This document shows positions 17,593-61,820 of a stretch of 64,000 bases of DNA, piece after piece. Made by a program: the position numbers and the translations under genes. This DNA comes from Siphonodentalium dalli. Taxonomy: Eukaryota > Mollusca > Scaphopoda > Gadilida > Siphonodentaliidae. Where the stretch lies: the NCBI GenBank assembly GCA_032622095.1, contig CP136068.1, forward strand, positions 11,017,729 to 11,081,728, read 5' to 3'. Below the pieces are notes generated by a model, which was not told the DNA's origin, made no database searches, and saw only the letters and a list, made by a program, of their open reading frames with translations. The first letter of the stretch is position 1. Each line of letters opens with the position of its first letter.

Positions 17593-17814
17593 TACAGTAA
17601 TTCTAGAGCTAATTAATCGACTCCTTAACTACAGCAGAATTATGGGTAACTTTTCAGGATTTAGTCCGAAATATGGCTTGTTGCCATTCATCGAAAAGCT
17701 CTCGCCGAGAGCTTTCCGATGAATGGCATCAACCCATATTTCCGACTAAATCCTGAAAAGTTACCCATAATTCTGCTGTAGTTAAGGAGTCGATTAATTA
17801 GAGCATTACTGTAT
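17593..17814. mobile_element. Palindromic MITE with ~105-bp arms
   Basis: 'acagtaattctagagctaat' leads into 'taatcgactccttaactaca' and 'ggatttagtccgaaatatgg'; the same text returns inverted up to 'gagcattactgta'. The centre is at about 17703, with almost no loop. The outer 'gctctaattaatcgac' motif is shared with the foldback element at 33297-34325 and the arm at 8977. A half copy is at 46454-46555. Confidence 0.88.
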
Positions 17815-17902
17815 ATCCTCTAATATGATCGTACGTGACACGTAATGGAGCAACCACCAAGTTGATCATTAAGTTCAATGTTACAATAATTATAGGATAT
17901 AC

Positions 17903-34333: not shown

Positions 34334-37300
34334 AATGAAAGTGTCAATGACACTGTACCTCAACTTGGAAAGGGAATAATTTAATGTGGAGCGATTAGGG
34401 GTGCGGAAAGTTGAAATGTCTAAGTAATACTAGATTATCAACATGAAGAGATACATATACCGGTACATGTATACCGATCAACTTCCCCCCCGGGGGGGGG
34501 GGAAGTTGACCTAGGTTATCTCCCCCCCCCGCCTGAATTTTACATACCTTAACATCTATTGGCGTGATAGTCTCATTTTATCATTCACTATGACTATGTG
34601 ACGTAGAAAAACTATCATTGGTGGCAAGGAAGCATGTCTTTTCTTCGGCAGAGACATTATTGTTCAGATTTTTGTTTTATTGAAAATCACCCCCAAAAAT
34701 AAATCTGAACAATAATGTCTCTGCCGAAGAAAAGACATGCTTCCTTGCCACCAATGATAGTTTTTCTAAGTCACATAGTCATAGTGAATGATTAAATGAG
34801 ACTATCTCGCCAATAGATGTTAAGGTATGGAAAATCCAGGCAGGGGGGAAGATAAACTAGGTAAATTCCAATGAAAATTCTCCGAACTATAATTATTGTC
34901 TCTTTTACAGAAAAATCATGCTTCCTTGTCACCTGTGATAGTTTTTCTTAGTCACATAGTGATAGTGAACGATAAAATGAGACTAACTCGCCAATAGATG
35001 TTAAGGTATGGAAAATCCAGGCGGGGGGGGAAGATAAACTAGGTAAATTCCAATGAAAATTCTCCGAACTATAATTATTGTCTCTTTTACAGAAAAATCA
35101 TGCTTCCTTGTCACCTGTGATAGTTTTTCTTAGTCACATAGTGATAGTGAACGATAAAATGAGACTATCTCGCCAATAGATGTTAAGGTATGGAAAATTC
35201 AGGCGGGGGGGGGGAAGATAAACTGGGTGATTTTCAATAAAAAAAAATCTGAACAATAATGTCTCTGCCGAAGAAAAGACATGCTTCCTTGCCACCAATG
35301 ATAGTTTTTCTACGTCACATAGTCATAGTGAATGATAAAATGAGACTATCTCGCCAATAGATGTTAAGGTATGGAAAATCCAGGCGGGGGGGGGGGAGAT
35401 AAACTAGGTAAATTCCAGTGAAAATTCTCCAAACTATAATTATTGTCTCTTTTACAGAAAAATCATGCTTCCTTGTCACCTGTGATAGTTTTTCTTAGTC
35501 ACATAGTGATAGTGAACGATAAAATGAGACTAACTCGCCAATAGATGTTAAGGAATGGAAAATTCAGGCGGGGGGGGGAGATAAACTGGGTGATTTTCAA
35601 TAAAAAAAAATCTGAACAATAATGTCTCTGCCGAAGAAAAGACATGCTTCCTTGCCACCAATGATAGTTTTTCTAAGTCACATAGTCATAGTGAATGATA
35701 AAATGAGACTATCACGCCAATAGATGTTAAGGAATGGAAAATTCAGGCGGGGGGAAGATGATCAGGGCGGGGGGGGGGGAAGATAAACTAGGTAAAACCA
35801 GTTTATCTCCCCCCCCGGGGGGAAGATGCGCAGGGGGGGAAGTTGATTTGTCACACCGGTATATAAAAAAGTAAAATCCAAGATGGTTACAGATGTAAAA
35901 TCCAGGTGGCTATGTTTTCCAATAAAATTTAAAAACATTTCATAGCTTCCATCTAGTAAGATCAATATCAAGATTAATATGAAGTCTGGAGATGATCGGA
36001 TGAGGGAAGTGGACTGTAGGGTGTGCCAACGGATTTTGTCATGCAAAGAGTAAAATCCAAGATGGCTGCCAGTGGACACATTTAAGACGAAATGAACCTA
36101 AAATGACTTGTACATGCCTGTGTCAACAGCCATGACAAATTTCATGATGATCCGATTAAAGGTACGACCTGTAGCCCATGCCAAAGGATTTAGTCATGCA
36201 AAGAGTAAAATCGAAGATGGCTGCTGGCGGCCATGATTTTGGCCGAATAACCTAAAAATTACTCGATCTCATCTACATGTCAATGTCAACATCCATGACA
36301 AATTTCACAATGATCTGACAAAAGGTGCGTTCTGTAGCACGTGCCAAAGGATTTAGTCATGCAAACTGTAAAATCCAAGATGGCTGCTGGCGGCCATGTT
36401 TTTTGGTCGAATGACTGGACAATGACTCGTTCCCATCTACATGTCATATTTAACAACCATGACAAATTTCATGATGATCTGACCAAAGGTTAGACTTGTG
36501 GCCTGTGTGAAAGGATTTAGTCATGCAAAGAGTAAACTCCAAGATGGCTGCCAGCGGCCATGTTTTTTGGCCGAACGACCCCAAAATTACTCGTTCCCAT
36601 CTACATGTCAATATTAACACCCATGACAAATTTAATGATGACCAGACTCACAGTAGCCTGTGCTAATGGATTGAATTTTGAAATCAAAGATGGCCGCGGG
36701 CAGCCATGTTTTTTTGTCCGAATGACCCCAAAATGACTCATTCCCATCTACATTCCAATTTAAACAGCCATGACAAATTTCATGATGATCAGACTAAAGC
36801 TACGATTTGTAGCCCGTGCTAAAGGATTTAGTCATCCAAAGAGTAAAATCCAAGATGGCTGCTGGCGGCCATGTTTTTTGGCCAAATGACCCCAAAATGA
36901 CTCGTTCCCATCTACATGTCATTGTCAACATTCATGACAAATTTTATGATAATCTGACCAAAGGTACGACCTGTAGCCCGTGCCAAAGGATTTAGTCACG
37001 CAAAGAGTAAAATCCAAGATAGCCAGTTGAGATAGCTGGCAGCGGCCATGTGTTTTGGCCGAATGACACCAAAAGTACTCGTTTCCCATCTACATGTAAA
37101 TATTAACATCCATGACAAATTTCATGATGATCCGACCAAAGGTACAACCTGTATGGCGTGCCAAAGAATTTAGTCATGCAAAGAGTAAAATCCAAGATGG
37201 CTGTCGACGGCCATGTTGTTTGGTCGAATGACCCCAAAATTACTCGTTCCCATCTACATGTCAATATTAACATCCATGACAAATTTCATGATGATCAGAC

Positions 37301-37395
37301 GAACAGTACGACCTGTAGACCGTTCTAATGGATTGAATATTGAAATCCAAGATGGCCACTGGTGGCCATGTTTTTTTATCCAAATGAATCGTTCC
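34334..37395 (+). repeat. Second ~160-bp array element, interrupted by a G-rich array
   Basis: The left flank 'aatgaaagtgtcaatgacac' (34337) equals that of the 19-22 kb copy, followed by 'ggaaagttgaaatgtctaag'. Array units resume at ~35870 and run to 37380 (about nine units). The stretch 34470-35850 between is a separate G-rich element inserted in it. Confidence 0.85.
34470..35850. mobile_element. Foldback array with poly-G/poly-C ends
   Basis: The left end has 'gatcaacttcccccc' and 'gttatctccccccccc' and the right end the inverse, 'ggggggggaagataaac' and 'gggggggaagttgat'. Between are repeated modules of about 165-185 bp: 'gtcacatagtgatagtgaac', 'gagactatctcgccaataga', 'tgttaaggtatggaaaatcc', G8-G12, then 'agataaactaggtaaattcc', then 'catgcttccttgtcacctgt'. 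The first module (34515-34670) is inverted relative to the later ones. Alternating module types differ by 'aacaataatgtctctgccga' versus 'aactataattattgtctctt'. Confidence 0.82.
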
Positions 37396-38488: not shown

Positions 38489-38617
38489 TCAAACTAGCTG
38501 TGAAATTAATTGCGGTACTACTATTTGCTGAAATCCGCCTGATCGGTGAAAGCCGGAGAAATCCTGCGTAAATACAGAAAGCCGGGTCGGGTTTCTGACT
38601 GGATATAAATAGATTAT
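38489..38617 (+). repeat. Left inverted repeat of the MULE region
   Basis: 38527-38617 ('gaaatccgcctgatcggtga', 'agccggagaaatcc', 'cgtaaatacagaaagccg', 'ggatataaatagatta') is repeated inverted at 51303-51395 at about 85% identity by eye. Just outside it, 38489-38507 is a 19-bp word that returns exactly inverted at 52978-52996. The block holds its own small hairpin (CAGAAATCCG/CGGATTTCTG in the right copy) and a TATAAATAG motif pointing inward. Confidence 0.75.
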
Positions 38618-41690: not shown

Positions 41691-42680
41691 TATATGGAAG
41701 AAGTTCATCTTTTCACTGCATAGAACAGAAAAGAGCGTTCCGTCTATTTGTGATACAGTGGAAATACAGATCGTGTGTTTAATTTCTTAAATTCTGTGCG
41801 AACAATTGAAAACATCTGGAAAATAACTGACCACGGAAAGTAATTTTGAGAGCATATATGAAGTATATCAATATTTTGTTGTATTTCTCAACATATATCT
41901 TGTGCCTCCTCCCAAATTAAGCAGACAAAATAAGCTTGATTGTTCGACACTCGCGGTTTGACTGTCCCCGAATTATCCTGCGACAATCGGGACCATGTGC
42001 GTCGACACTAAAATTTTTATGATTAAAGTGATGTGAAACCCCCCGATTCCGAATGGAATAACAAATAGTTATGCCAAAATAGGTTATTTTCAAAAATTTG
42101 ATTCCAAACAATCAGAAAACAGGGTCAATGTTATAACCGAAATATACTCAATGACTGTTATTAATCATTGCATGACGTAATGTTTATGTCCAATAATGCG
42201 TCCCGAATAAATTAGTAAATATTTACGTATATGTAGTTCAACCGTTGCATTCTCTGAAATGGTAAAGTCGACGTGGTTAATGCCACATTCTTCCAATGAG
42301 GATAATGTTTGGTTACTAACAGATTGGTTTTATTCAATGAAATAAGTCCACAATATGTCTTTAACATATATTACCGGTATCCATTAAATGAAAGGAAAAT
42401 TATCACCGATATTACTCGCGTATCAGCCTTTAGCCAGAAACTCGTCAACGTTGAAGCTATAGATACGACGGCTTTCTAAATTTATGCATACATATTTTGT
42501 TAAAGCATAATTTATACTTTGGACTGCGAAAGTATGCAAATTGGTGTTGGAAGATTGTCGTATCTATATTGGAGCCGTTGACGTGTTTCTGTTTCCGGGT
42601 CACACCACTTGGAGGAATTTCCGTAGAAATTGGCTGATTTTTGTGACCCAGGGCACCCCCACCACCCCCAGGACAGTTTT
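41691..42680. other. Unassigned region downstream of the MULE gene
   Basis: No gene recognised; frames at 41917-42111 and 42512-42738 lack motifs. If the element's end lies at 38.5 kb this is its non-coding left part. Confidence 0.35.
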
Positions 42681-42681
42681 A

Positions 42682-42900
42682 CGCGATTTGGCCGGTTGGC
42701 ACATCGATAATAATCAGAAAATGCACACGCAACCATAGTTTATGTGTTTACGCGTTTTGCGGCTCGGTAATAACCTGAGACCGCACTATGCGATTTGGCC
42801 GGTTGGCACATCGATAATAATCAGAAAATGCACAAGCAACCATATAGTTTATGTGTTTACGCGTTTTGTTGCTCGGTAATAACCTGAGACCGCACAATGC
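42682..42900 (+). repeat. 107-bp tandem duplication
   Basis: 'cgatttggccggttggcaca' + 'tcgataataatcagaaaatg' ... 'ggtaataacctgagaccgca' appears at 42684 and 42791, differing by a few bases. It lies about 220 bp past the transposase stop. Confidence 0.92.
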
Positions 42901-43123: not shown

Positions 43124-44725
43124 TTATTTTTTCTTTTGTACAATTTTTGGAATCGTTCTCGTCTTCGCACTTTTCCGGCGCTGCACTTGGCCTGGTTTCT
43201 TTCCTCCACTGTTTGACGTCATTACCGTGAGCGACCCGTCAGTCGTCGTCTGCCGTTTATATCCAGATGGTTTCATTGCTTTCATAAACTTCTTGAAGTA
43301 CTTGTCTTGGTCCTCTTTTGACTTGGAACTCCATACATCGGGAGACAGTACGAAGCGCTTGAAATCCTTCGTCAATCGAAATTGACCAAATTCCACCAAA
43401 CTGCGTCTCAATTCAATGTATTCTCCATTTATTACATCATAAATTTTCTCCACCAAATCCGTCATATTTTGTTTCTTCCACTCTACAGCTTGCTTCAACG
43501 TGTGGTTCAAACTTTCGCAATTATTGTTTGTCCAATTGACTGTGCTTAGTAACGGTCCTGGTCGTGTTGATGTTTTGAAATTCTCAGTCAACATTGGCTC
43601 AATTCGATTGTTGAAATAATCTTCGAACTTCCCAGTAAGTCTCTGATTGACAATCTCTCGCTTGGTCCGCTGCATTCTGCATTCGAACGTGACAATATCA
43701 GACGCCGCCACGATACCCGTGTCCTTGTCAAAAATTGAATCAACTACGATTTTTCTGTTCTCTGATGGAGTTCCCACGTCGTCTTTAAGGTAGTCAACCA
43801 CGTTACCCTTCAAGTGCCTGGTACATGACAATCTGTGTCCTCCTGGGAAGTTGAAATCAATCGCCTTTCGCATAGCCTTTTCGTCATCGCTTCCTATGAC
43901 GGGGCTGCTTGTTCCGGAAAGTGCCGTTGCTAGTTCGGCAAAGAAGGTACTATAACTTGAAAAGTCGCTGTTTCCGTGCAGGAATACTGGCCCAGGTAAT
44001 ATTGGATGATCTTCTGTATTACGTCTTGTGACCGAAAGCTGTTTGAAACAACCAATCGTTACATGCACGTCGCCTAAATTGAAAGTTTTATCAAAGCCCA
44101 GAGGAGTTGTTGTGGCGTTTGGAAAATTGCAACAGAAACGTTTTATATCGTCAATTTGTTCTGGTATGTAGAGGATTACCATCGGTATCTTATCTTTAGT
44201 ATGAATCACCTTTTGTACACATGGGTGGAATTGTACTAAATTTCCCAAATTTTGGACGTGGTCAGCAAAATTCCTTCTATTTCCTTCCACCTGAGTTCTT
44301 TGCTTCTTTTCGTTATATTTTGCGTTCTGTATTTGCTTCAGAGAACGCGGAGCTGAGTATATGTCCTCCTGTTCTTTGACCAGAGTCCGGTATGCTTGTA
44401 GGGGTTGCATCGACGACGAGTGTTCCTTAATTTTCGACATAGCCTCCCGGGGCATTCTAATGTAAATGTTAGTATTTTTAATACTATTTCCATGTGGACC
44501 ATGACCTGGAAATATGCCGGTATATTCGACAAGTGCAACCGTATTTACGTCTTCGCCATCATTATCTATCCACGTTACCCTTCTTTTATAACACTTGCTC
44601 AGCTTGTGTGTTGAGTACCTCCTATGCACTTTTAAGATTTCTTCCTCTGTGGGTTGTACCTCGCAAGGAGTGTACGTGGTCATTTTGTCCTTCACGCGTT
44701 TGAGACAGTATTCGCCATTCTTCAA
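43124..44725 (-). CDS. MULE (Mutator-superfamily) transposase domain
   Basis: A 533-codon frame, the longest in the window, with a MULE-type DDE nuclease: first Asp in GFDKTFNLG (D212), second in VIGSDDEKAM (D280 or D281) followed by FPGGHRL and the C-x2-H motif CTRH (301-304), and Glu in NWTNNNCES (E404). Mutator transposases cut and join element ends in the nucleus. The C-terminus (500-533) is basic and Lys/Arg-rich, likely DNA binding or nuclear targeting. The N-terminus (RYSTHKLSKCYKRRV, VALVEYTGIFPG) looks like the continuation of an upstream domain rather than a true start, so the Met at 44725 is only the first Met after a frame break. One-base frame changes separate it from the OTU part upstream. 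Confidence 0.86.
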   Translation of the reverse strand: MKNGEYCLKRVKDKMTTYTPCEVQPTEEEILKVHRRYSTHKLSKCYKRRVTWIDNDGEDVNTVALVEYTGIFPGHGPHGNSIKNTNIYIRMPREAMSKIKEHSSSMQPLQAYRTLVKEQEDIYSAPRSLKQIQNAKYNEKKQRTQVEGNRRNFADHVQNLGNLVQFHPCVQKVIHTKDKIPMVILYIPEQIDDIKRFCCNFPNATTTPLGFDKTFNLGDVHVTIGCFKQLSVTRRNTEDHPILPGPVFLHGNSDFSSYSTFFAELATALSGTSSPVIGSDDEKAMRKAIDFNFPGGHRLSCTRHLKGNVVDYLKDDVGTPSENRKIVVDSIFDKDTGIVAASDIVTFECRMQRTKREIVNQRLTGKFEDYFNNRIEPMLTENFKTSTRPGPLLSTVNWTNNNCESLNHTLKQAVEWKKQNMTDLVEKIYDVINGEYIELRRSLVEFGQFRLTKDFKRFVLSPDVWSSKSKEDQDKYFKKFMKAMKPSGYKRQTTTDGSLTVMTSNSGGKKPGQVQRRKSAKTRTIPKIVQKKK

Positions 44726-45387
44726 AACAACTTGTTCGACACCCCACCTGTCGTGCTGCGAAAAAGGCTAATGGGACTACCACCTTTTGAACCCCAGGAC
44801 CCACAGTCGTCCCACCATTCACACGACTTTCCATTTTTTTTACGCTCCAAATTTTTTGAATTATCTACTATGACATAAATATTTTCTTTCGGGCCACAAG
44901 GTATAACCGGCTCCACGGTTTCATGTGCTGCTAATTTCCTGATTATTTCTGTTATACTTAATAATTTGCCGTGCTCAAGAGGGAAGCCAATGTGGGAAGG
45001 CTCGGTGTTAGCTAATTCACCGTCGTCAGAAAAAGAGTCATCGATATGTTGTATGTCTGAACCATCGTTCGAAATTATGTCTATTTGTGGTTCGGTCAAT
45101 AGCGAATTATCTATTTGTGATGGCGTTTCGGTGGATGTTTTGCTGATCTTATTGTTTTCAATTGAGATGATTTCACATTTTATTTCCGGTGTTGCAGAAT
45201 CGGAGTCATTGCATGTACCATCAGATGTGGTAAGACTTACCGTAATTGAAGGTGAGTCAATATTTGACTCTACATTCGTTTTGTTTGCTGGCGAGAACCC
45301 CGCATTGAGAGAAGCGGCTTTACGCGTTTGAATAATTGATATGACAGGTGCCGTTTGCGTGACTTTTTTTTTTCTGAAGAAATACAA
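44722..45387 (-). CDS. Linker region between OTU and MULE domains
   Basis: A 221-codon frame. The first 150 residues are acidic, Ser/Thr/Asn-rich and probably disordered; then comes KLLSITEIIRKLAAHE and IYVIVDNSKNLERKKN, ending in a WWDDCGSWGSKGGS segment that reads straight into the transposase frame if one base is shifted near 44745-44790. Its own beginning overlaps the end of the OTU frame at an A10 run (45364-45373). It is therefore most likely the middle of one long polyprotein-like gene, not a separate gene. No domain is recognised. Confidence 0.68.
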   Translation of the reverse strand: MYFFRKKKVTQTAPVISIIQTRKAASLNAGFSPANKTNVESNIDSPSITVSLTTSDGTCNDSDSATPEIKCEIISIENNKISKTSTETPSQIDNSLLTEPQIDIISNDGSDIQHIDDSFSDDGELANTEPSHIGFPLEHGKLLSITEIIRKLAAHETVEPVIPCGPKENIYVIVDNSKNLERKKNGKSCEWWDDCGSWGSKGGSPISLFRSTTGGVSNKLF

Positions 45388-46017
45388 AATGGTTTGGTTG
45401 AAAATCTGTCTGGGTATTTGGGACAGAAGTAGATGTCCACATAATTGTTAAAGCCGGGTCGCGTCGTCTATTGACAGCACGCCCGTACACCCTCTTACTA
45501 AGTGTGGTACCTACTGTGTTGTCCAGCATTGTTGGGCAATAAGTGGAAATGCCTTTGTTCAGGAAAGTACTGATCGCAACAACGTGAATCATTCCTGACC
45601 AACCACGGGGTCTCAACGCGGACAATGCTATCATAGGTGCCATTGAATAGCAATGCATCATTGAGCAAATCGACATAGTTCGCCGAATCGGAATCATAGA
45701 AGTTTCGGTTTTCCAAAATCTCTAGCGATGTGAGTAGACGGAGTAATAGATGGTGACATTCTGTGCCAAATAGGCCAACCGAAACCGCCCTGTATAGGCA
45801 GTTACCATCGTCTCCGATTTGTATTGGGGTATAATCCTGGAGGATTATTGGATTAAGTTTTTCTAAAATTTGTTTCGTCGTCGAGTCAACGTTATTGCTT
45901 ATCGGTGTTGTTTTTGGAATTGGTGGTAGTTTGATTTTATACGTTTCGAGCATGAGCCGCTCGCTTTCGATTTGAATTTCCAATTCAGCTGCGCTCTTCT
46001 TTGTAGTATTTTTCAGT
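45366..46017 (-). pseudogene. OTU-type cysteine protease exon, broken by a frameshift
   Basis: Exon starting after the acceptor 'cttctttttctattcag'. Residues include GDDGNCLYRAVS, the classic OTU catalytic Asp/Cys box (Cys codon at 45798-45800), then LLLRLLTSLEIL, and in the next frame HVVAISTFLNKG, ALTIMWTST and NHFVFL, which carries the catalytic His. The frame changes by one base close to 45585-45595 between WLVRNDS and HVVAIS. OTU proteins remove ubiquitin; OTU domains are known cargo in some MULEs and other transposons, where their role is unclear. The exon joins in phase to the PHD exon at 48013-48248 and by frame shift to the linker and transposase downstream. Confidence 0.8.
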
Positions 46018-48012
46018 CTGAATAGAAAAAGAAGACACGGGATAGTATGCTGAATTAGTGGCATTTCCACACGACGACTTCACTAGATAAGTGTGAAGTC
46101 AAGCGACCGCATTCACTATGACTATAGTCAACTCTGGACAACTAAATGGCAATGTCGGCATGGGATATTCATGCTTGTGGACCATTTTTACATGTTTCTT
46201 GGAATTGAAAATCAAGAGCTTATTAATTGTGGAATAACAGTACCAATGTGTTGCCCGAATGTTGTGTCATTACTGTCCAGAATATTGAGTTATATTTGCT
46301 ACAAACGACAAGGAATTTTCCATTTCTTCTTATCAAGCTAATAAAGAGCGTTTCGTTTGACTTATTATCTACCTTACTCGTTTTTAAATTTTCAACAATA
46401 GCTATGTTACCATGATTTGTCGCTTGCATTCTGAGCAATGGTCTTGATGGCAGTGAGAGCTTTCCGATGAATGACAACAAACCATATTTCCGACTAAATC
46501 CTGAAAAGTTACCATAATTCTGATGTGGTTAAGGAGTCAATTACTTAGGGTATACTGTATATAGCATAACTCAAATAAGGACATTACTGTACGTTTCATT
46601 ATCACTTTATGAATTTACTGAATATAAAGCTCATATATATACCCATGCTATGTATACAGTCCAGTGGATTTATGAGCAAAACGTGTCACAATATTTCTTA
46701 GCAGGAATAAGTCTAGCAACCCATTCTAAACAACACACTGAAATCTAAAAGGATCAAGAAAGGCGAAATTGATCAATTATGTTAAATAAATTTGTCAAAA
46801 TTTCCTAAAATACTCATATGGCTTTTCAAAGATATTTATAAAAATCTCCATTTATATGTCCATTTTTCGACTATGTGCCTCCAAAATTGAGAGTTTGTCT
46901 TATGTCGGAGCCTCAGTTTCTCAGATTTAGCTAAAAATCCACATTTTATGGTCTAGTATTGCTGTTGTGTTAGATTCCTCACTGTATTATTACTTTATGC
47001 ACATATGATCGAGAGGACAAAACTATTCTTATACAAAATGTGTCTTCCATTGTTTGAACTTAGCCAAATTTTCCTTGCCACACAAAACTACCATATTTGA
47101 AGTCACACAATTTAATAAATTGATATCATTTACCTGTAAAACAGGGAATATGGATATATATTTATTAAGTTCTATGATCTCAAATATGCTATTTAATTCT
47201 TGAAAAGCCATAACATTTGAGTATTTTATCAAATTATGACAAATTTACTCCACAAAATTCATCAATATATCGTCTTTCTTGATTCTGTTTGATTTTAGTA
47301 TGTTGTTTATGATAGGTTAATATATTTGTTCTCACTGAGAATGTTGCAATTAGTGTGATGAGAAACCATAAATGCACTGGACTAATATGGCATATACTCT
47401 GAACAGACTAATTAAACCATCAAAAACAAATATTGACATAATTTACTATATGACTTTTCTTATTTTCGAATTTCCACACAATTCACAATGCTGAGCTAAA
47501 CGCTCTTTATTTTACGATACCAAGAAAGAAGGTAGTAACGAACGCTCTTTATGTCCACATGTTTTGCAAGTAAATTTTAAGGAAGTCATTTGTTGCAGTT
47601 TATGGGCACGGATTATATATTTAAAAATCACAAATTGCGTAAAGTGAAAGAACGGGCAAATTGTAGCTTTAATTATTTCGGTTCTGGGATTATGTGTCGT
47701 TTTAATAAATAATATTGACAAATAAAGCAATAAATTCGTGCTGCGTGTTAGGCACGTCCCCGACAACAGTTAATAATTACTATTACAGCCACACAAACTG
47801 TAATACCGTTAACATTCGCTGACATATGACTATGACGAATGAGGTATATAGAATTTCAAAGAAAGATCAATTACGCCTGATATCGCTGTCTTATCATGTC
47901 GGGTCAAAGTTCTGTTATGTAAATTCCAATCTACTCTACAATTAAACCACGCATATATATGGTGATGGGCAGATTGAATGATAGATCAAGACGATTAATT
48001 AGAAAAACGAAC
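46018..48012 (-). other. Intron of the PHD-OTU-MULE gene
   Basis: Bounded by donor 'GACAG|gttcgttttt' and acceptor 'ttctattcag|ACTG'. It is AT-rich, holds a half copy of the 17.6-kb palindrome (46454-46555), and none of its short frames is recognisable. Confidence 0.55.
46454..46555 (+). mobile_element. Half copy of the palindromic MITE from 17.6 kb
   Basis: 'gagagctttccgatgaatg', 'atttccgactaaatcctgaa' and 'gttaaggagtcaattactta' match the right arm of 17593-17814. The left arm is missing. Confidence 0.85.
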
Positions 48013-48248
48013 CTGTCCAAAGCCGCCACCAAGTTGTAACCGCCATCATCTCTGCAGAATGCACATGCTTTGCACAAAAATGTCAAACCGTTTTGTTTGT
48101 TGGTGGGATTCCACTTGATCAATATACTACTGGTTGTTGGAACACATCTTTGATGAATCCATTTGAAACATCCGTCGCACTCGATTACGCCAATATCACA
48201 CTTACGTCCACACATACCACATGGATAATCACATTCCGTAGAAGACAT
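48013..48248 (-). CDS. PHD zinc-finger first exon of the OTU-MULE gene
   Basis: Starts at ATG (48248) and encodes about 78 residues with a C4-H-C3 pattern: CGMC, CDGC, WIHQRC, CKAC. That spacing fits a PHD finger, a fold that usually binds histone H3 tails in chromatin. It ends at a donor with the last codon split as AG|A, and the OTU exon at 46017 supplies the A followed by CTG AAA, keeping the frame (Arg-Leu-Lys). The model is thus PHD exon, 2-kb intron, OTU exon. A PHD finger could guide integration to certain chromatin, but this is inference. Confidence 0.68.
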
Positions 48249-50830
48249 GACGATATTGGAATTCTATGCAGTCTACCAGAAAAGTGATGGTTACCTCGGT
48301 AATATACCCAGGAAGCCAGACATGTTACGTCATGGCCCAAGAGTTTATTGCATACCCCGCGGTGATGCATGTCTGCCACCATTCCAAATCGCCTTATTTT
48401 CCCTGTACCAGCAGAGGAACTTCAATTCAATTTATTGTGATGTAAACATATTTTATTCCAATAAAAAAATAACATGTTTAAACAGGGAGAGAGATTATGA
48501 AGGAGAAAGACATAGAGAGGACGGGATATATATAAAGTTGCAACTGACGTCGCATATCAGAATTACCATTCGTGATATTCACACAGACATCATTGAGGGT
48601 CAAATTTGATGTAGTGTTAATGGCGAAGTTTCGACACCTCATCTGTCACTTCTCGCATGTCGATGAATGCTCGTCCCATCATATTGATTCCCTGGAAGAG
48701 CGATATTATTCCAATGAACTCTGTATATAAGACTGCAGTGTTATGTATATATTCAATTCAATTGAATTAAGTTTATTCACATCGTCAATATAGACATTAA
48801 AGAAGAGTTGTATACATAAATACAATGTATATATATATATATATGGACCGAAATATTTCAAGGACCTTCCTAATAAATACTGATAAGTTTTTAAATGTCT
48901 TATGATTTCTGTAGTTAAATATAGGGGTATTGCTTGGGTATTATTATAAATGTATACAATATGAGGGTGTCACCCACCCACCCCTATATATATATCAGAA
49001 TATATCAGATAATCAAATACTCACCGTCTGGCATATGGCCGCAGTGTTATCTCTCGATGTGTAGTGAAATATCTGTGCACCCGAGAGTCTCACAGCCTTG
49101 TAGTTCATTTTGCTCTGGTCGATCTGCAAATATAATCAGACTATTTCACGAACGATTAAATAAGCACATAAGCTGCCACGCTGTCACATATTCGACTCCT
49201 TGCATATGTATGTATGTATTATTTCACACTTAAGTCGAAGTTGTTGCAGCATTGTTCAGGGTATTTTAGTCTAAGACCGTTTTATAGTCACAATGTGGTC
49301 AATTGTGACTCTGAAAATGAGAAAATCTTTTAACTAAAATGCCGACCATGGGGCACGTAGTTGGAAATTCGTAGAGTAGGCCTAACCCAAGCTAAAAAAA
49401 AACAGAGTTCGGTCTCATGCCACGCTATATGTCTAAACGCTGCAGGTATGTGTATTTTCTTAATTAAATCGAACATGTTTTATTGAACTGTTTTGTCAGT
49501 TACAATTCATTCTGGCTTGATCAGACATTTTTCAAATAAATATGGACAGTTCGTTTCTCAGAATAATGCAGAATGAATTTAACCTACAAAAGTCCCCAAT
49601 ATATAAATGTGACATTTCTTCACATTACGTGTAGGCCTAGGTGTGCGCATGTCTTCCAGCTTTCTCAACCGTGGGTTCCCCTTGTGAAACTTTACATGTA
49701 CATATACAAAAAAAAACACACACACGCACACATATATAGATTATTATTTATGGTATAATAATTGTGTACATTCTTCTTCTAAACACCAAACGCTGCCGAC
49801 CATGCACTGCTTTGCTCCCCGACGCATCGTTCAAATATGTATGCCCATACCTGAAATACAAATTATGTACAATATGTAATATGTTCGAAATAATGATAAT
49901 TTATTATCCGATAATGGATCATAATGAAAAACACCCTCTTTGATCCCGTGGCCCCGGTTTCAGTACAGAAATGCAGCCTGTCTTCAATGTGCAAGATGTC
50001 ACTATACTTGGCATGCAATAACAGTTTACGACATCCTGTAAATAACAAATGGCAAACTCCATGCAGCGATTTCAGTAGCCAAGTACCCAGGCCACCAAAC
50101 GTATCTATTTTAGTGTAAACAATATTTATTTGAACAAAAGAACAGAACAACACATTGACAATTATACATATTGAGTAACAAAAACATAGTTCAAATGAGG
50201 ATTAGATAACAAGCCATGAGCCTATGGCTTTTATAAAAATCTTTTCCTCCAAAAATGTTACCCCGAGTGTCAATACAGACAGCTACAGGGTAAAAAGGAC
50301 GGGAATTTGAATATTGTTCTGTGTTTTCAAATAAATGTTGGGAAGTTAGTTAAGCGAGTGCAGGGATCAGAAAGATGGAGCAGTGATAGAAGGGAGGAGA
50401 TTATGAAATAGACAAGAAAGATAATAAAGTAGGTGGAAAAGAAGTGTGATAAATGCTGTATACAATAATCCCTGTCATAATCTAAATTTTACATTATGGC
50501 GTTAAATCATGGTGTGTTGTCCAATATAGAAACGGAATTAGACCCCAAATACGTCTCGGCACCCAGGAGAGATGATGCATGAAAATAAGTATATATTAGG
50601 ATAATTGTTATACTTGTAGTGCGTATCAATATAATCTAGATACAATTAGTACATGTAAGTACAATCATTAGTAAGTCCATTAATATGACAAGGTCAGCAC
50701 GGTTGAGCACGCACTCCGTGGGCAGACAGGCGGATATGCCCGAACACAATGTGCAGAAACGCGACTTACATATTTATACATACAAGTTATGCACCTCATG
50801 TTCGCATACACGACCCCCTGCGCACGGAGC
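48249..50830. other. Region upstream of the PHD exon; one candidate exon
   Basis: Holds (AT)n at 48828-48846, (CA)n near 49712-49735 and the candidate exon described separately. Another stretch, minus strand from 49850 after acceptor 'ttgtatttcag', is open for ~30 codons (reading YGHTYLNDASGSKAVHG) but has no clear donor. Otherwise unassigned. Confidence 0.4.
49025..49123 (-). CDS. Candidate 33-codon internal exon
   Basis: 99 bp lying between a good acceptor ('ttatatttgcag') and a good donor ('CAGACG|gtgagtatt') on the minus strand, open throughout in phase 0 (MNYKAVRLSGAQIFHYTSRD within it). It lies 0.8 kb upstream of the PHD exon. It could be a 5' exon of the PHD-OTU-MULE gene or part of a host gene containing the element. 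The peptide is not recognised. Confidence 0.42.
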
Positions 50831-51088
50831 TCACACATTATCGAAACGTCGACTTTGGATAATAAACAGTTGTACAGCTTCAAATATTATAGAATTTGTT
50901 TCATCGGACATCTCATTAGACCCATATAATAGGACATCAATGTTCACATCTGCTGGCGAAAATGGCAGAGCGGCTGTCATATCAGCTCTAATTTGACTAT
51001 ATTGGGGACATTGCAAAAGAAAGTGGTACGCGGATTCAACTACAAATTCCCCACAAGAGCAAAATGGGGAATCTCTTACGTATCTCTT
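50831..51088 (-). pseudogene. 3' end of a second LINE reverse-transcriptase ORF
   Basis: The minus strand encodes CSCGEFVVESAYHFLLQCPQ then YSQIRADM, LLYGSNEMSDETN and FEAVQLFIIQSRRF before a stop. The C-x-C...H-x4-C arrangement with 'HFLLxCPxYxxxR' is the C-terminal motif of many LINE ORF2 proteins. Upstream (higher coordinates) the frame is lost by about 51100, so it is a short 5'-truncated copy. It lies just inside the right inverted repeat of the MULE region. Confidence 0.78.
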
Positions 51089-51302
51089 ACGTATCTATTG
51101 GTTGAGTCAGGTACGAGACTACGATCTCAGCGGAGCGATGAGAGATAACTCTGCCTGGAGTTTGGACACATGGATCAATTCAGTTGTCAAAAGCATGCCC
51201 ACCGGCGTAAAGTTGCAACATTGTCTTAATTGCATTAGCACGTGTAAGATAAATGATACCGGCCACGACGACACGGCCACAGTTCACCAAAAACAAAAAT
51301 TA

Positions 51303-51395
51303 ATTATAATCTATTTATATCCAGACAGAAATCCGACCGGCTTTCTGCATTTACGCGAGATTTCTCCGGCTTTCTCCGATAAGGCGGATTTCTGC
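51303..51395 (-). repeat. Right inverted repeat of the MULE region
   Basis: Inverted partner of 38527-38617; see that entry. It ends about 60 bp before the SGNH-like start codon. Its TATAAATAG motif on the minus strand points toward the PHD-OTU-MULE gene. Confidence 0.75.
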
Positions 51396-51453
51396 ATATA
51401 GGCAGACCCATTAATTGTTGGTGTAAAAACTTATTTTTCGACCATAACAAGTC

Positions 51454-52197
51454 ATGTCTCTGTCGAAGTTGTCTAAATATAGGACAAAGAACCAGCTACC
51501 GTCACCAGAGGGCAAATCTAATTTTAAACCCATAGTTATCGGCGATAGTAAAGGCAAGCATTTGAAGAAACTTTTGCGTGAACACCCAGTCGATGATTCT
51601 GTTATTTGGAAGTGTGAAGGTGGACGTGAGTTTAGTCAGGGACTTGATTTGTTACGAAGAAACATGAGAGAATTTTGTAAGAATGGTCCAGTTTGGATTT
51701 ACGTTTGGTGTGGTACATGTGATTTGACTGTGAAGCCCAGAGATCCCAAGAACTACATTTATCTTGCATCCAGTGATTCTCGTACATCCGAACTTTCAAC
51801 TATTATTCAGGAGTATTCAGAATTCATGAAGAAATTCCCCTTGTGCAAGATAACATTCCTGGAAGTGCCTGTTTATTCAATCGTACATTGGAACACTTGC
51901 AAGAAACATCCAACACCTTCTGATTTTGAACACGATGACGGAATTCTGCGGGAACAAGTTTCGGAACTGAACATGTTTATTTATGAAGAAAATGAACGTC
52001 AAAATGTTTATACACCTCGTTTTAACACGGACTTGAAAGTTACATCAGTGGTGAAGAAAGGTGACCGGCATGAGGGACAACGTAGCACATTCTATAATTT
52101 AAGTTTGTATGCTGATGGCGTTCACCCCGGTGAACTACTTGCAGAAATATGGCTTCTCAAAATTAGAAATCAAATTCAAAAAGATTGTTGGAATTAA
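51454..52197 (+). CDS. SGNH-hydrolase-like protein, single exon
   Basis: An intact 247-codon gene with the landmarks of the SGNH (GDSL-like) fold: block I VIGDSKGKHL (Ser32), a beta strand with VWCGTCDLT (87-90) at the place of the GxND block, and YADGVHPG (Asp221, His224) as the C-terminal DxxH. SGNH enzymes hydrolyse esters of lipids, sugars or other groups through a Ser-His(-Asp) mechanism. The usual Asn of block III is replaced by Cys here, so activity is uncertain. There is no signal peptide or membrane span, so it is probably intracellular. Start: the first ATG after the inverted repeat. It is divergent from the PHD-OTU-MULE gene. A decayed copy faces it tail-to-tail. It is probably transposon cargo; a host gene is less likely. 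Confidence 0.72.
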   Translation: MSLSKLSKYRTKNQLPSPEGKSNFKPIVIGDSKGKHLKKLLREHPVDDSVIWKCEGGREFSQGLDLLRRNMREFCKNGPVWIYVWCGTCDLTVKPRDPKNYIYLASSDSRTSELSTIIQEYSEFMKKFPLCKITFLEVPVYSIVHWNTCKKHPTPSDFEHDDGILREQVSELNMFIYEENERQNVYTPRFNTDLKVTSVVKKGDRHEGQRSTFYNLSLYADGVHPGELLAEIWLLKIRNQIQKDCWN

Positions 52198-52261
52198 TTT
52201 TTGACAAATTTATGTATAACTATAAGTACATGTAATTTCCAACTATTATTCCTATATAATA

Positions 52262-52950
52262 AGTATATCATTAATTCCAGAATAATTCCAATTTTTTTTT
52301 GAAATTTGATTTCCTACTCTATTACTATTCTGAGAAGCCATGTTTCTATTACACATCAAGACATGCATGTTATATCATGATTCATCGCCGAAATTTAAAT
52401 TGTAGTATTTGCTAGGTTGACCCTCAAAAATCACATCTTTTACGACGTCTGTTTTCTTCCTCTGAATTTTTATTTATATTATTGTTTGTATCCAAAACTT
52501 ATTCCCGCAGAATTTTCCCGTCCATTTGTGAGTCATGAATATCAGAAGGCGATGGGTGTATCTTGCAAGTTTTCCAATTTATGATTGAATAAACAGGCCC
52601 ATATTATGGCATATAGTAAATCTCTTGCATTTTAGTATTCTGACAATTTTAATTCATAAATTAGAAGATGTAGTATGTACGAGAATCGGAATGATACTGT
52701 AGTTCTTGTGATCTCTTGGCTTCACACCAATATTGAATTGACGTAGATGTGTTTTACTAAACACGAAAGTTAATTTGAAAATGAACCATCCTTACAAAAT
52801 TCTCTCATGTTGCTTCGTGATAAATCAATAATAGAATCGTCGACTGGGTAAGTCTGTCAGAGAAAGTCCGAAACCAAACTGAACACATTTGCTAGATGCC
52901 GAACTCAATGATTTGTTTATTGTTTGCCTTCTGGTGACGGAAGCTTGAAC
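52262..52950 (-). pseudogene. Decayed inverted copy of the SGNH-like gene
   Basis: The minus strand carries, in gene order, 'ccgtcaccagaaggcaaa', 'acccagtcgacgattct', 'aacatgagagaattttgtaa', 'tgtgaagccaagagatcaca', 'gattctcgtacat', 'cctgtttattcaatcataaa', 'cttgcaagatacac', 'aattctgcgggaataagttt', 'aatactacaatttaaattt', 'acatggcttctcagaat' and 'aaatcaaatttc'. Each matches 51494-52190 closely, with gaps, stops and frame changes between. It covers nearly the full gene and ends some 65 bp from the intact copy's stop. Confidence 0.85.
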
Positions 52951-52996
52951 TAAATTATGAACTTGGATCTACTTCACAATTTCACAGCTAGTTTGA

Positions 52997-56488: not shown

Positions 56489-56561
56489 CATACACATACT
56501 AAATTCAGACTTGATGTACATGTAGATTAGGCATACATTCAAAAATTCATACTTTAGTATG

Positions 56562-57725
56562 AACAAACTTGGAGTGCAACGTCCAGTGTTACATGGCCTG
56601 TATATGATAGTACACCGAATAATAGCAAGTTTTTCCATGAAACTACCAGTTATCATTGAATGATGAATGTTGCCAAAATTAATTGCCAGTTTTCATCAAT
56701 GCAATGAAAGTCGCTAGTTTCATGGAAACTTCCCATATTCAGTATATATCAGATAAGGTCAAACTAGACCCAGGTTTGACATACCGCGTATTGTACGAAC
56801 AAACTTGGAGTGCAACGTCCAGTGTTACATGGCCTGTATATGATAGTACACCGAATAATAGCAAGTTTTTCCATGAAACTACCAGTTATCATTGAATGAT
56901 GAATGTTGCCAAAATTAATTGCCAGTTTTCATCAATGCAATGAAAGTCGCTAGTTTCATGGAAACTTCCCATATTCAGTATATATCAGATAAGGTCAAAC
57001 TAGACCCAGGTTTGACATACCGCATATTGTACGAACAAACTTGGAGTGCAACGTCCAGTGTTACATGGCCTGTATATGATAGTACACCGAATAATAGCAA
57101 GTTTTTCCATGAAACTACCAGTTATCATTGAATGATGAATGTTGCCAAAATTAATTGCCAGTTTTCATCAATGCAATGAAAGTCGCTAGTTTCATGGAAA
57201 CTTCCCATATTCAGTATATATCAGATAAGGTCAAACTAGACCCTGGTTTGACATACCGCGTATTGTACGAACAAACTTGGAGTGCAACGTCCAGTGTTAC
57301 ATGGCCTGTATATGATGGTACACCGAATAATAGCAAGTTTTTCCATGAAACTACCAGTTATCATTGAATGATGAATGTCGCCAAAATTAATTGCCAGTTT
57401 TCATCAATGCAATGAAAGTCGCTAGTTTCATGGAAACTTCCCATATTCAGTATATATCAGATAAGGTCAAACTAGACCCAGGTTTGATATACCGCGTATT
57501 GTACGAACAAACTTGGAGTGCAACGTCCAGTGTTACATGGCCTGTATATGATGGTACACCGAATAATAGCAAGTTTTTCCATGAAACTACCAGTTATCAT
57601 TGAATGATGAATGTCGCCAAAATTAATTGCCAGTTTTCATCAATGCAATGAAAGTCGCTAGTTTCATGGAAACTTCCCATATTCAGTATATATCAGATAA
57701 GGTCAAACTAGACCCAGGTTTGACA
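56562..57725 (+). repeat. 236-bp tandem array, ~4.9 copies
   Basis: The unit starts 'gaacaaacttggagtgcaac' and repeats at 56798, 57034, 57270 and 57506 with only a handful of substitutions, so it is recent. Each unit has the same 70-codon frame from ATG to stop (starts at 56683, 56919, 57155, 57391). Because 236 is not a multiple of 3, the frames cannot fuse. Whether the peptide is made is unknown; the few changes alter amino acids (Val/Ile, Ser/Gly, Thr/Ile), which gives no sign of selection for the protein. Confidence 0.95.
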
Positions 57726-59089: not shown

Positions 59090-60192
59090 TCATATTCTGT
59101 GGAATTCCGCGAAACAGGCTTTCCCTTGGCAAAGATTGACGTTGCACAGAGAACACCCATAACTGGATTCCACTTGTCTACCGGAAATTGTCTTTCGCCC
59201 ATTGCGAGAACACATAACGCACACTCGTTTTCTGCCCTCAAACTTAACGTTTTGATGCCCAGATAAATTGGCACTTGGTACGCTGACCAAAAGAGACTTC
59301 CTATTATGCTTTGTGTGCTTATACTTTCTGCTGGTAAATCCTTCAACAAGACCTGCACAAACATCCAGCCGAAAATTGAATGATGTGTACTTCTTTTTTG
59401 GCTTATTCTGAACACACTCGTTATAAATTACATACGAGTTTATCAAACATAACTCCAATAGGAAGAACGCCAGATATTTCCAATATTTTCGACCTTTTCG
59501 TCCCACTTTATAGTATGATCTAAACTGATCCGACAGGTCTACGCCGCCCATATATTTGTTGTATGTGGTTATGTTATCTGGACAGGGAACCTGAATCTTA
59601 CAACCGCCAGATCTCCTGTCAACTAACGATGTGTCGGGGTTGCTTTTATTTGAAAGCATTAACACCGGTTTTCTGTCCTTCCACAGAGTTACCAATTGGT
59701 CCTCTTTTTGGAAGAACTTCACATCCCCCCTTGCCATCTTTTTTGCTTCCTGTTTTACGAGTTTTACCTGTTTTGGCAAGCCCTTTCTGTTTGACCCAAC
59801 CGTACCACACCCATACAATTTCATTTCTGTCAGTTTTGCCATAAGTTCGACCGAATTGAAGTAATTGTCAAAATAAATATGGTAATATTTACCCTTCAAT
59901 TTCTCAGCAAAATCTACAACAACTTTCTGACCAAGATGAACTTCAGGGCCAGTATCTTTTCTGCCTTCATAAATTTTGGTTTGATAGCAGAACCCCTTAT
60001 GATCTGCTATCATCCATGCTTTCAAACCCCACTTGATTGGTTTTTTGGGCATATACTGTTTCAGTGTGGTACGGCCTTTGTAACCAATCATTGCCTCGTC
60101 TATGCTTACATGTCTGCGAGGCATGTAAACATTCGGATTAGTGGCATTTGTATTGACCATGTCAATGAGGCTTTTAATTTTTTGACAATTTG
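59090..60192 (-). CDS. piggyBac transposase, catalytic and C-terminal part
   Basis: This frame holds the DDE_Tnp_1_7 (piggyBac) catalytic core. From its first Met (60223) the three Asp are at 42 (VSIDEAMIGYKGR), 119 (IYFDNYF) and 229 (MGGVDLSDQ), all conserved. The C-terminus has a Cys-rich domain: CVMC, YGCSLCNVNLC, KACFAEFHRI, which in piggyBac binds the element ends. piggyBac enzymes cut and paste at TTAA. The Met at 60223 lies upstream of the frame break, and the true reading comes from the N-terminal frame through the break at 60178-60183, so this is not an independent gene. PGBD4-like transposases are the closest I recall. Confidence 0.9.
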
Positions 60193-61019
60193 TCGCGATC
60201 ATCAATTTGAGTATTGTCCTCAAGGTGGAAATATTGTTCCAGTTTTCGGAATCTATTGATGGTCATAATCTTGGATATACCACGGACATTCAGTCTATCG
60301 TCGGATGACCAATAATCATCCAAACGAGGCAGGTTATGAATTCCCATCAATATCTGCATCCCGATGAACGCCTTCATTTCACTGGCCGTGGTCTCATGTG
60401 TCCAGTATATATCACGTTCTTTTGTTTTTTGCTGTGACTGTTCAGCATATAGGTTTGTTTGCTCAGCAATGTGCACAAAATAATCTGTGTTGAACATCAG
60501 ATGAAAGAAGTCAACAGGCGCCATGGCCGCAATGGCTTCCCTTGATAATTGGGGCCCCTCTTTCTCTTTGAATGGTCTTATGCTTTGGTGGTTTATATTC
60601 CTTTTGCGCCATTTTCCAGCAACATCACTGAGCAACCTATCCATCTCAGCATCGTCGTCATCGACCTCAACCCCATCCCCACTTGACCCACTTGTATCTT
60701 CGGAAGTGGCATCATCCTCATCTTGGTCAGACTCAGAGTTGAGATCACTAGACCCCCACAAACTTGATGTGTTTGATTCGCCAGATACCGACGAAACCGA
60801 AGAAACACTCGACACCGAGGACACGGTGGACACATTCGAAACCGAAGAACATTCAAAATCTTCATCATTATATGTTCCGTACATACAATCAGGCACAAGC
60901 CCGTCAACAAAACGGTCAAACTCATCAATAGATGAGGACAAATATTTATCGTTTGAAGAATGAAACAACCTCCTTTTTTTCGGAGGAGAAATAATGTTGT
61001 TTTCCTCCGAAGTCGCCAT
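60174..61019 (-). CDS. piggyBac transposase, N-terminal part (upstream of frameshift)
   Basis: Encodes a nuclear-type basic stretch (PPKKRRLF), an acidic Ser-rich region with a run of VSSVSSVSSVSS, then the piggyBac domain start PVDFFHLMF, AFIGMQILMG, DYWSSDD, INRFRKLEQYFHL and DRDKLSK. I take the Met at 61019 (MATSEEN) as start; a Met 7 codons earlier is possible. The frame ends after an A6 run where five A's would continue into IKSLIDMVN of the next frame. Except for that single base the 640-residue protein would be whole. Confidence 0.88.
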   Translation of the reverse strand: MATSEENNIISPPKKRRLFHSSNDKYLSSSIDEFDRFVDGLVPDCMYGTYNDEDFECSSVSNVSTVSSVSSVSSVSSVSGESNTSSLWGSSDLNSESDQDEDDATSEDTSGSSGDGVEVDDDDAEMDRLLSDVAGKWRKRNINHQSIRPFKEKEGPQLSREAIAAMAPVDFFHLMFNTDYFVHIAEQTNLYAEQSQQKTKERDIYWTHETTASEMKAFIGMQILMGIHNLPRLDDYWSSDDRLNVRGISKIMTINRFRKLEQYFHLEDNTQIDDRDKLSKN

Positions 61020-61040
61020 CTTCAAACTAACTTTAACCAC

Positions 61041-61820
61041 TAAAAACCCCCGTTACATATACATGTACATATTTGGTCAATACTTAATTTAATTTTAAAA
61101 AAGTCATTCATAAATTCGCAAAACGGCCATCGATCTATTTCCGATCGAGCCACTGCGATCTCATTGGCATCTCATTGGGCCTTTTGTCGGCGACGCACAC
61201 CGATATATTGGGCGCACTTACGTCATTTAGGGAGAGATTCTGAGAATTACGTTTGCGAATGGAGATAGCATTATTTAACTTCGGCGTAGTTCATAAAGAT
61301 GATATTAAATAGCTTCTATTAAAACTAGGTTCACATAAATGCAAAAGACTAGGTTATATATAATTAAATGACTCATATTATATATTTAAACAAACTGTAT
61401 TCGCATTTTTGTGACTTCTAAATGTTATATACACGGAGGCATCCTAGCGTGCCTGGTAACCGATGGTTCGGATTTGCGACGATTTCGCATTGGCGAGTAC
61501 ACTCGTTGAAAACGCGAACAAAACAAACAAAATATTAGAAAAAAAACCATACGGACATTAATATTAGGTATAAAACACATAATTTTCTATAACATTACAA
61601 TATTGTTAAAATATATGAGGCATTTGTACCAGAAATGGCGATAGCTTTTCATATTTTGCACCGTCCAAGTTTTTAAATTTTTTTCCCCCGAGTCAGGCCA
61701 CTTAGATCACATTTCAGCTGTCAAATGAGGTTGCTTATGTGACTAGCCACATAAGCAATCATTTGAGTCCAAATGGTATTTGAGTGGCTTCGAAGACACA
61801 TAAGTGGCATTTTGTGGGAA
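61041..61820. other. 5' flank of the piggyBac gene; small hairpin
   Basis: Holds the presumed promoter and left terminus of the piggyBac element, which I could not define. At 61723-61766 'aaatgaggttgcttatgtg' and 'cacataagcaatcattt' form a hairpin. Confidence 0.45.

Follow-up and report, generated by a model that had tools for sequence, protein, structure and literature searches.

Results

Features of the Locus.

We analyzed a window of 64,000 nucleotides, the whole stretch of Siphonodentalium dalli DNA under study (contig CP136068.1, positions 11,017,729 to 11,081,728), and found a PHD finger, an OTU domain, and a MULE transposase on its minus strand. They lie in that order and span 5.1 kb; domains, order, and strand are direct observations. 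A host-like gene has its 3′ end at 48617, and the MULE locus lies just past it. Rfam and ARAGORN searches of the whole window gave no match, nor did PHROGs searches of three pieces. The features, from the PHD end, are the following.

48013..48248, minus strand: proposed exon 1, from the ATG (48248) to the donor, 78 codons plus 2 bases, with a PHD finger (Pfam PHD)
48063..48221, minus strand: C4HC3 zinc ligands C10, C13, C24, C27, H32, C35, C59, and C62 (from the sequence; pattern search output 48054–48221)
46018..48012, minus strand: proposed intron of 1,995 bases, phase 2, GT..AG (predicted from splice scores)
46705..47331: inverted-repeat element in the intron, arms 46705–46829 and 47200–47331, 77–78% (self-comparison)
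46455..46562: repeat in the intron, about 90% identity to 17707–17816 and, inverted, to 17609–17703 (self-BLAST)
45498..46079, minus strand: open frame in which exon 2 starts (46017) and which carries DDGNC (from 45812), the Asp/Cys box of OTU
45320..45721, minus strand: second OTU piece, read in a different frame and holding NHF (from 45394), a candidate motif for the catalytic His
44722..45447, minus strand: linker frame (ORF) with the stretch CEWWDDCGSW (from 44823) at its end, coding extent putative
43124..44767, minus strand: MULE transposase ORF of 547 aa, to the stop codon (PF10551)
42680..42900: tandem repeat of two copies, each about 110 bases, directly after the transposase stop codon (self-comparison)

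The Three Domains.

The initial annotation placed a C4HC3 PHD finger upstream of the OTU domain, and our searches agree. Pfam PHD matched the exact exon with 24.1 bits against a cut-off of 24 (E 3.6e-5) and the longer ORF around it with 22.8 bits. Across the six frames of the window, the C4HC3 pattern occurred in exon 1 only, and it was absent from all 100 Markov-random windows. The exon resembles Pygopus PHDs (E 0.013–0.054 among the Pygopus chains listed), with 2vpb and 3zpv as its top Pygopus matches. In Pygo2, the PHD signature Trp, which precedes the seventh ligand by two residues, is W377, and W353 divides the two histone pockets (PMC2927781). In exon 1, Phe at residue 57, aligned to the Trp of Pygopus chain 3zpv, replaces the signature residue, while a Trp at residue 30 aligns to Pygo1 and, by our own mapping, would take the pocket-divider position. 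Because the presumed pocket-divider Trp is kept but the signature Trp is Phe, we consider histone reading a possible role. A PHD finger that binds H3K4me in the Pygopus manner has a complete methyl-lysine pocket in addition to the divider Trp. A single-sequence structure model of the exon (pLDDT 40.9) was discarded.

The OTU domain was said to follow, and its Asp/Cys box is present, but neither piece passes Pfam alone. The first piece gave Peptidase_C65 at E 0.0085 and OTU at E 0.067, both below the cut-offs, and the second matched no Pfam family. With the two pieces read through and an X between them, Pfam OTU scored 25.5 bits against a cut-off of 23.3, covering residues 70–195 of 217. The His of NHF (residue 209, motif from 45394), by motif a candidate for the catalytic His, sits at the expected end of an OTU domain but 14 residues beyond the Pfam match. 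Any deubiquitinase activity is putative.

Downstream of the OTU pieces, a MULE transposase was found as annotated: the ORF matched PF10551 at positions 4–97 of 99 with E 9.3e-6 and 26.4 bits, though 1.2 bits short of the curated cut-off of 27.6. MULE was the only Pfam family on this ORF up to E 1, a range within which no Gypsy-integrase type DDE appeared. NCBIfam IS256 also matched it (E 4.1e-5), with 22.7 bits, far below the cut-off of 150, and two NCBIfam matches on the other pieces were at chance level. The candidate DDE residues lie in FDKTFNLG (44095), GSDDEKA (43894), CTRH (43825), and NNNCESLNH (43528), motifs that we presume to be the catalytic ones.

Splice Signals and the Proposed Joining of the Exons.

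The splice signals are seen directly, and the joining of the exons is predicted from them. We scored sites with position weights, and their ranks are relative only. The donor AG|GTTCGT at 48012 scored 5.3, the highest among the nine GTs of the ORF tail; its strength is moderate, with 199 of the 3,891 GTs on the strand, itself counted, scoring as high or higher. The exon 2 acceptor, ...TTTTTCTATTCAG|A at 46017, scored 13.9 and ranked first among 2,891 AG sites on the strand. As the initial annotation stated, the two sites rebuild an in-frame Arg codon, and the frame stays open to the Asp/Cys box at 45812. The match of phase, to which it gave weight, turned out to be weak evidence for joining, because a count of the 108 GT/AG pairs put 33 in frame; it adds a factor of about 3 only.

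We also counted alternative first exons. The 255 GTs in 46100–50500 gave 76 ATG-led, phase-compatible candidates, three of which have donors that outscore that of the PHD exon; these three code for just 5, 9, and 22 codons, versus 78 for the PHD exon. Donors scoring above 48012 also arise by chance within coding sequence, as at 45240 (10.3). Because the exon 2 acceptor is very strong and no comparable rival first exon was found, we favor a model in which the PHD finger, OTU domain, and transposase belong to one spliced gene.

A broken reading frame is directly visible at the locus. The frame is kept into the Asp/Cys box, as annotated, and the exon 2 frame is then lost in the ORF overlap 45498–45721, by eye near 45.62 kb, placing the break inside the OTU domain, 3′ of the Asp/Cys box and 5′ of the NHF motif. 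Another shift occurs around the linker that precedes the transposase, and the linker ORF uses a third frame. The transposase ORF shares its register with the second OTU piece, the ORF starts being 954 bases apart with stops between, and by ORF coordinates OTU and transposase are not connected by any one open frame. One frame break may fall at an A-run near 45.37 kb. No Pfam family exceeded its cut-off on the linker frame.

The last frame change could be read as an intron between the 45240 donor, the best of the gene region, and an acceptor at 44755 (8.6), both in phase 0. We disfavor this intron, since the CEWWDDCGSW stretch, presumably conserved in such elements, would be lost with it. The pair shows that splice scores and phase alone can mislead.

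Element Ends, Copies, and Relatives.

The tandem copies at 42680–42900 are possibly subterminal element sequence, and no inverted partner above chance was found for them upstream of the PHD exon. In the close flanks, the best TIR candidate, a weak similarity of one flank to the other led by GCGATTTGG, scored 12 and was rejected, 274 of 300 Markov-resampled controls scoring as high. For a TSD of 8–10 bp, as is usual for MULEs, the best combined TSD/TIR score was 6, a value that 5 of 40 placements chosen at random within the window equalled or exceeded. A strong inverted pair lies farther out (38489–38617 and 51306–52996). It was set aside as the TIRs of a larger element: its ends carry no TSD-like pair, of a kind expected by chance in 54 of 200 placements. 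It would enclose the host-like exons, and its arms look like two copies of a different repeat. Because no TIR or TSD stood above the controls, the position of the PHD exon inside the element is putative. Several MULE groups are listed without TIRs (PMC6446971, Table 1).

A search for a second copy with tblastn of the gene pieces gave no further match at E below 0.8 anywhere in the window. No relatives of the MULE ORF, the first OTU piece, the PHD exon, or two degenerate motif patterns were found in viral_contigs, none of the MULE and first OTU piece in genome_contigs (prokaryote genomes), and none of the MULE protein in the phage and plasmid collections. This is expected because the viral, prokaryote-genome, phage, and plasmid collections hold no animal genomes.

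Alternative Explanations.

The PHD exon might instead be a stray mobile-element piece, most likely the start of a CR1/L2-type LINE ORF1, lying by chance upstream of an OTU-MULE gene on the same strand; we consider this unlikely. LINE copies usually lose the 5′ end and retain the 3′ end, opposite to the N-terminal piece that would be left here. Between the PHD and OTU parts, three minus-strand ORFs of at least 60 aa (46223–46528, 47512–47769, and 47029–47244) had no Pfam match, and thus no ORF1 remainder, endonuclease, or reverse transcriptase by Pfam. The exon also ends at the donor that scores highest in the ORF tail and whose phase fits that of the top acceptor. What speaks for a LINE source is the finger itself. 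Many CR1/L2 ORF1s carry PHD fingers, Pygopus-like and in some subgroups N-terminal, and among the PHD rows of these subgroups the best structure match was Pygopus (2vpb or 3zpv) in seven of nine (PMC4120745, Table 1); the same two chains head the Pygopus matches of our exon. These elements differ in being retrotransposons without an OTU domain or DDE transposase (PMC4120745).

It is rather improbable that the OTU-MULE gene does without the PHD finger, starting at the ATG at 46064 or 45953 or with another small first exon, the PHD ORF being a separate transcript. Both ATGs lie in the open exon 2 frame and could start exon 2, the three short phase-compatible first exons have the better donors, and MuDR-6_HM is listed with OTU and without a zinc finger (PMC6446971). 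Yet the 46017 acceptor, the strongest on the strand, makes little sense without an upstream exon, and the few codons of those first exons speak against them. It is very unlikely that the locus was, rather than an element, a domesticated MULE-derived host gene that has since become a pseudogene or whose assembly contains errors: the intron, the lack of a detected TIR/TSD, and the position just past the 3′ end of the host-like gene (48617) would fit, but the broken frame is unlike a conserved gene unless the breaks are sequencing errors, and TIR-less MULEs are on record (PMC6446971, Table 1).

Discussion

A single spliced transposase gene with PHD, OTU, and MULE parts, present as one broken copy, is the best model of the locus, and we hold it to be moderately probable. 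The initial proposal of PHD and OTU in one MULE gene is thus favored by the acceptor and by the want of a rival exon, but it has against it the broken frame, the single copy, and the failure to find a TIR or TSD.

Under the spliced-gene model, the locus would represent a metazoan DNA transposon of the Mutator-like (MULE) type, now decayed, with a single transposase gene. A short exon 1 would encode the Pygopus-like PHD finger, and a phase-2 intron would have been enlarged later by nested repeat insertions. The long exon 2 would encode first a linker, short and probably helical, then an OTU-type cysteine protease and, after a further linker of acidic character, the MULE DDE transposase. In intact relatives, the DDE domain would be expected to cut and paste the element and the PHD finger to tether the transposase to chromatin, possibly to the H3 tail; the OTU domain would remove ubiquitin, either that on the transposase or that on proteins present at the site of cutting or of insertion.

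OTU was described as known MULE cargo, and the literature bears this out: MuDR-6_HM of Hydra (group 14; PMC6446971, Table 1) is a MULE that carries an OTU motif ("Ovarian Tumour Gene") and is listed with one ORF and no TIRs. Compared by its table description alone, it differs in having no zinc finger listed. Rehavkus, a MULE outgroup of arthropods and annelids (PMC6446971, Table 1), resembles our locus in combining a PHD finger with a MULE-like element, and a minisatellite towards the C terminus is listed among the likenesses; it differs in that no OTU is listed, with TIRs of 26–400 bp and a 9-bp TSD.

Ginger1-9_HM has a DDE transposase with a PHD finger and a ubiquitin/SUMO-type cysteine protease (Ulp1), and other Ginger1 transposons carry OTU (PMC2836005). 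The same paper tabulates introns in 13 of 16 Ginger1 families, and its Figure 1e legend describes an alignment of Ulp1 and PHD domains from Ginger1 and Mutator transposases. As described there, Ginger1 differs in its Gypsy-integrase type DDE, in the C-terminal place of the extra domains, and in pairing PHD with Ulp1, not OTU. RAG1-RAG2 (PMC4411706) likewise has a transposon-derived DDE recombinase working with a PHD protein, an analogy of working, not kinship; its PHD is on a separate Kelch protein, and the recombinase is Transib, not MULE.

The initial annotation knew of no description of this arrangement. We found no description of the order PHD, OTU, MULE in one gene among the open-licence PMC papers listed, judged by titles, the openings of abstracts, and passages of some papers, but the separate parts are published on mobile elements; the arrangement seems new, its parts already known singly. 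A bolder reading, which we hold to be less likely than not, is an undescribed animal MULE lineage in which one spliced gene would encode a DDE transposase together with an OTU deubiquitinase and, at the N terminus, a PHD reader resembling that of Pygopus.

If true, such an element would be a self-contained machine, coupling the choice of chromatin by histone mark with ubiquitin removal during transposition. A role in transposition for the ubiquitin/SUMO-type proteases of DDE transposons has already been suggested in print (PMC2836005, Discussion). The single broken copy mainly marks a family to look for. If intact copies with the PHD-OTU-MULE order exist, combinations of PHD fingers with ubiquitin/SUMO-type proteases would have arisen on DDE transposases on more than one occasion, that of PHD and Ulp1 in Ginger1 being published, and the published guess that the protease helps in transposition would become testable on one protein.

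A PHD Exon Ahead of the OTU and MULE Frames

We found a plausible gene joining a PHD finger, an OTU (ubiquitin-protease-like) domain, and a Mutator-like (MULE) transposase, read from one broken copy. The window is rich in repeats (GC 38%) and reads as eukaryotic in character.

Features of the locus (all but the repeat on the minus strand)
49025-49123 and 48617-48691: what look like the final two exons of a host-like gene (57 residues; phase 0/0)
47931-48263: ORF carrying the PHD finger
48013-48248: proposed exon 1 (PHD exon)
46705-47331: inverted-repeat element in the proposed intron, from a self-similarity search
45498-46079: first OTU piece
45320-45721: second OTU piece
44722-45447: linker ORF
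43124-44767: MULE DDE transposase ORF

Bounded by its first ATG (48248) and the putative donor, exon 1 encodes 78 residues and matches the Pfam PHD profile at 24.1 bits (E = 3.6e-5; cut-off 24), the longer ORF reaching 22.8 bits. The C4HC3 ligands are complete (8/8: C10, C13, C24, C27, H32, C35, C59, and C62), and a six-frame reading of the window contains the pattern a single time, against none in 100 order-1 Markov windows. Among PDB chains, searched with 48012-48245, the closest named sequence relatives were Pygopus PHDs (E = 0.013-0.054), while the top row was a designed-looking protein, C3HR3_9r_shift4 (E = 0.0011, query residues 37-73). PMC2927781 gives Pygo2 W353 as the histone pocket divider and W377 as the PHD signature Trp; by our mapping, a Trp kept in the PHD exon would correspond to the former, and a Phe stands at the position of the latter.

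Proposed Splice Junction and Choice of First Exon

The initial annotation placed a split Arg codon across 48012/46017, and the codon is indeed divided 2+1 between the donor CAG/GTTCGT (48012) and the acceptor ATTCAG/ACTGAA (46017). By position-weight scores, whose ranks are relative only, the acceptor ranked first of 2,891 AG sites on the minus strand and the donor first of the nine GTs in the PHD ORF past the last zinc ligands; strand-wide, 199 of 3,891 GTs scored at least as high as this donor. The junction is in phase as claimed, but phase alone counts for little, since 33 of the 108 donor/acceptor pairs within the two ORFs are in frame. Among the 255 GTs at 46100-50500, 76 close an ATG-led first exon compatible with the acceptor, and three of these outscore the PHD-exon donor, with lengths of just 5, 9, and 22 codons. 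Given the top-ranked acceptor and the shortness of these rivals, we believe from the sequence that an upstream exon precedes exon 2, with the PHD exon as the best candidate for it.

ATGs in the exon-2 frame at 46064 and 45953 make a PHD-less start of the OTU-MULE gene at either position possible. The host-like exons end in a stop codon ~370 bases ahead of the PHD ATG on the same strand, and splicing of the PHD exon to that coding sequence is therefore unlikely; they show a weak PTS_2-RNA (Tpt1) match (E = 0.022) and no match to PDB sequences up to E = 1.

The intron proposed between the PHD and OTU exons spans 1,995 bases and contains at least two nested repeats, so part of its length probably stems from later insertions. 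In addition to the repeat listed, 46455-46562 shows ~90% identity to the adjoining, oppositely oriented 17609-17703 and 17707-17816; because both arms match the same intron stretch, 17609-17816 is by its sequence an inverted-repeat element.

Broken Frames in Exon 2

As claimed for the OTU Asp/Cys box, the exon-2 frame is open from the acceptor past DDGNC (45812). It breaks within the ORF overlap 45498-45721 (visually placed near 45.62 kb), upstream of NHF (45394), a candidate OTU His motif. The linker ORF lies in the third frame and, if coding, therefore requires further frame changes in the overlaps 45320-45447, which contains an A-run near 45.37 kb, and 44722-44767. The transposase ORF shares its register with the second OTU piece, the two ORF starts being separated by 954 bases, and stop codons lie between them. 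A strong donor at 45240 and a fair acceptor at 44755 (minus strand) are both phase 0, and an intron there would span the last frame change.

With an X placed at the first frame change, the read-through OTU pieces match Pfam OTU at 25.5 bits (cut-off 23.3) over residues 70-195 of 217, ending 14 residues short of the NHF His; the first piece alone gives E = 0.067 and the second alone no Pfam family. The best solved-structure relative by sequence is OTU domain-containing protein 1 (4bop; E = 0.0022). The transposase ORF (547 aa) scores E = 9.3e-6 on the MULE profile (26.4 bits, 1.2 below cut-off) and E = 4.1e-5, far below cut-off, for IS256 transposases, and matches no PDB sequence up to E = 1. 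The transposase thus follows in the order first annotated, but the frame breaks inside the OTU and ahead of the transposase mean that this copy cannot encode the whole protein, barring sequence errors or introns that went unrecognised at these points.

Element Ends and Neighboring Repeats

In the close flanks, terminal inverted repeats (TIRs) and target site duplications (TSDs) did not rise above controls: of 40 random placements, 5 equalled or exceeded the best TSD/TIR score of 6, and the best inverted-similarity score of 12 was reached in 274 of 300 controls. On this result, the place of the PHD exon inside the element is putative. Several MULE groups without TIRs, including the OTU-carrying MuDR-6_HM, appear in Table 1 of PMC6446971.

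A far inverted pair, 38489-38617 versus 51306-52996, combines 97 bases at 90% (51306-51401 with inverted copy 38521-38617) and 19 identical bases (38489-38507 with 52978-52996). We set it aside as the element's ends, as its outer ends carry no TSD-like pair and it would enclose the host-like exons; on these grounds it is tentatively read as two copies of another repeat. The short copy looks like an internally deleted form. An ORF inside the pair (51448-52197, 249 aa), which may be SGNH/esterase-like, gave nothing above the Pfam cut-off.

Elsewhere, a piggyBac-type transposase (59090-61052, minus strand) lies in overlapping frames 60174-61052 and 59090-60262, whose DDE_Tnp_1_7 matches (E = 8.9e-27 and 1.9e-52) imply a frame change between them. 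ORF 50831-51094 (minus strand), without a Pfam match, resembles by motif a LINE reverse transcriptase at its C-terminal end. Long tandem arrays occupy 56557-57725, 19156-21939, 36125-37334, and 11124-12967; units include five 236-base copies (99% match) and forty 45-base copies, and 163/164-base arrays in two places have related-looking units.

Known Parts and Proposed Working

Published work contains the parts separately: an OTU-bearing MULE and, in the MULE outgroup Rehavkus, a PHD (PMC6446971); PHD with Ulp1 in Ginger1-9_HM and OTU in other Ginger1 elements (PMC2836005, where a figure legend names Ulp1 and PHD domains for the transposases of Ginger1 and Mutator); and Pygopus-type PHDs in LINE ORF1 (7 of the 9 PHD rows given by subgroup; PMC4120745). 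OTU and PHD are absent from the main text of a 2026 arthropod MULE survey (PMC13359780), passages of PMC6431247 and PMC12220107 contain nothing on a PHD-OTU-MULE order, and "OTU" in PMC6875170 means only "operational taxonomic unit." The matches listed from the open-licence literature include no apparent description of PHD-OTU-MULE; the combination is apparently new, whereas its parts and ideas are already in print.

A part in transposition or its repair has been proposed for the OTU and Ulp1 domains that DDE transposons carry (PMC2836005), and PHD proteins working with a transposon-derived recombinase offer analogies in RAG1-RAG2 (PMC4411706) and Paramecium IES excision (PMC11385659). It is reasonable to suppose that the PHD would tether the transposase to chromatin, and the OTU may act on ubiquitin of the transposase or of proteins at the break.
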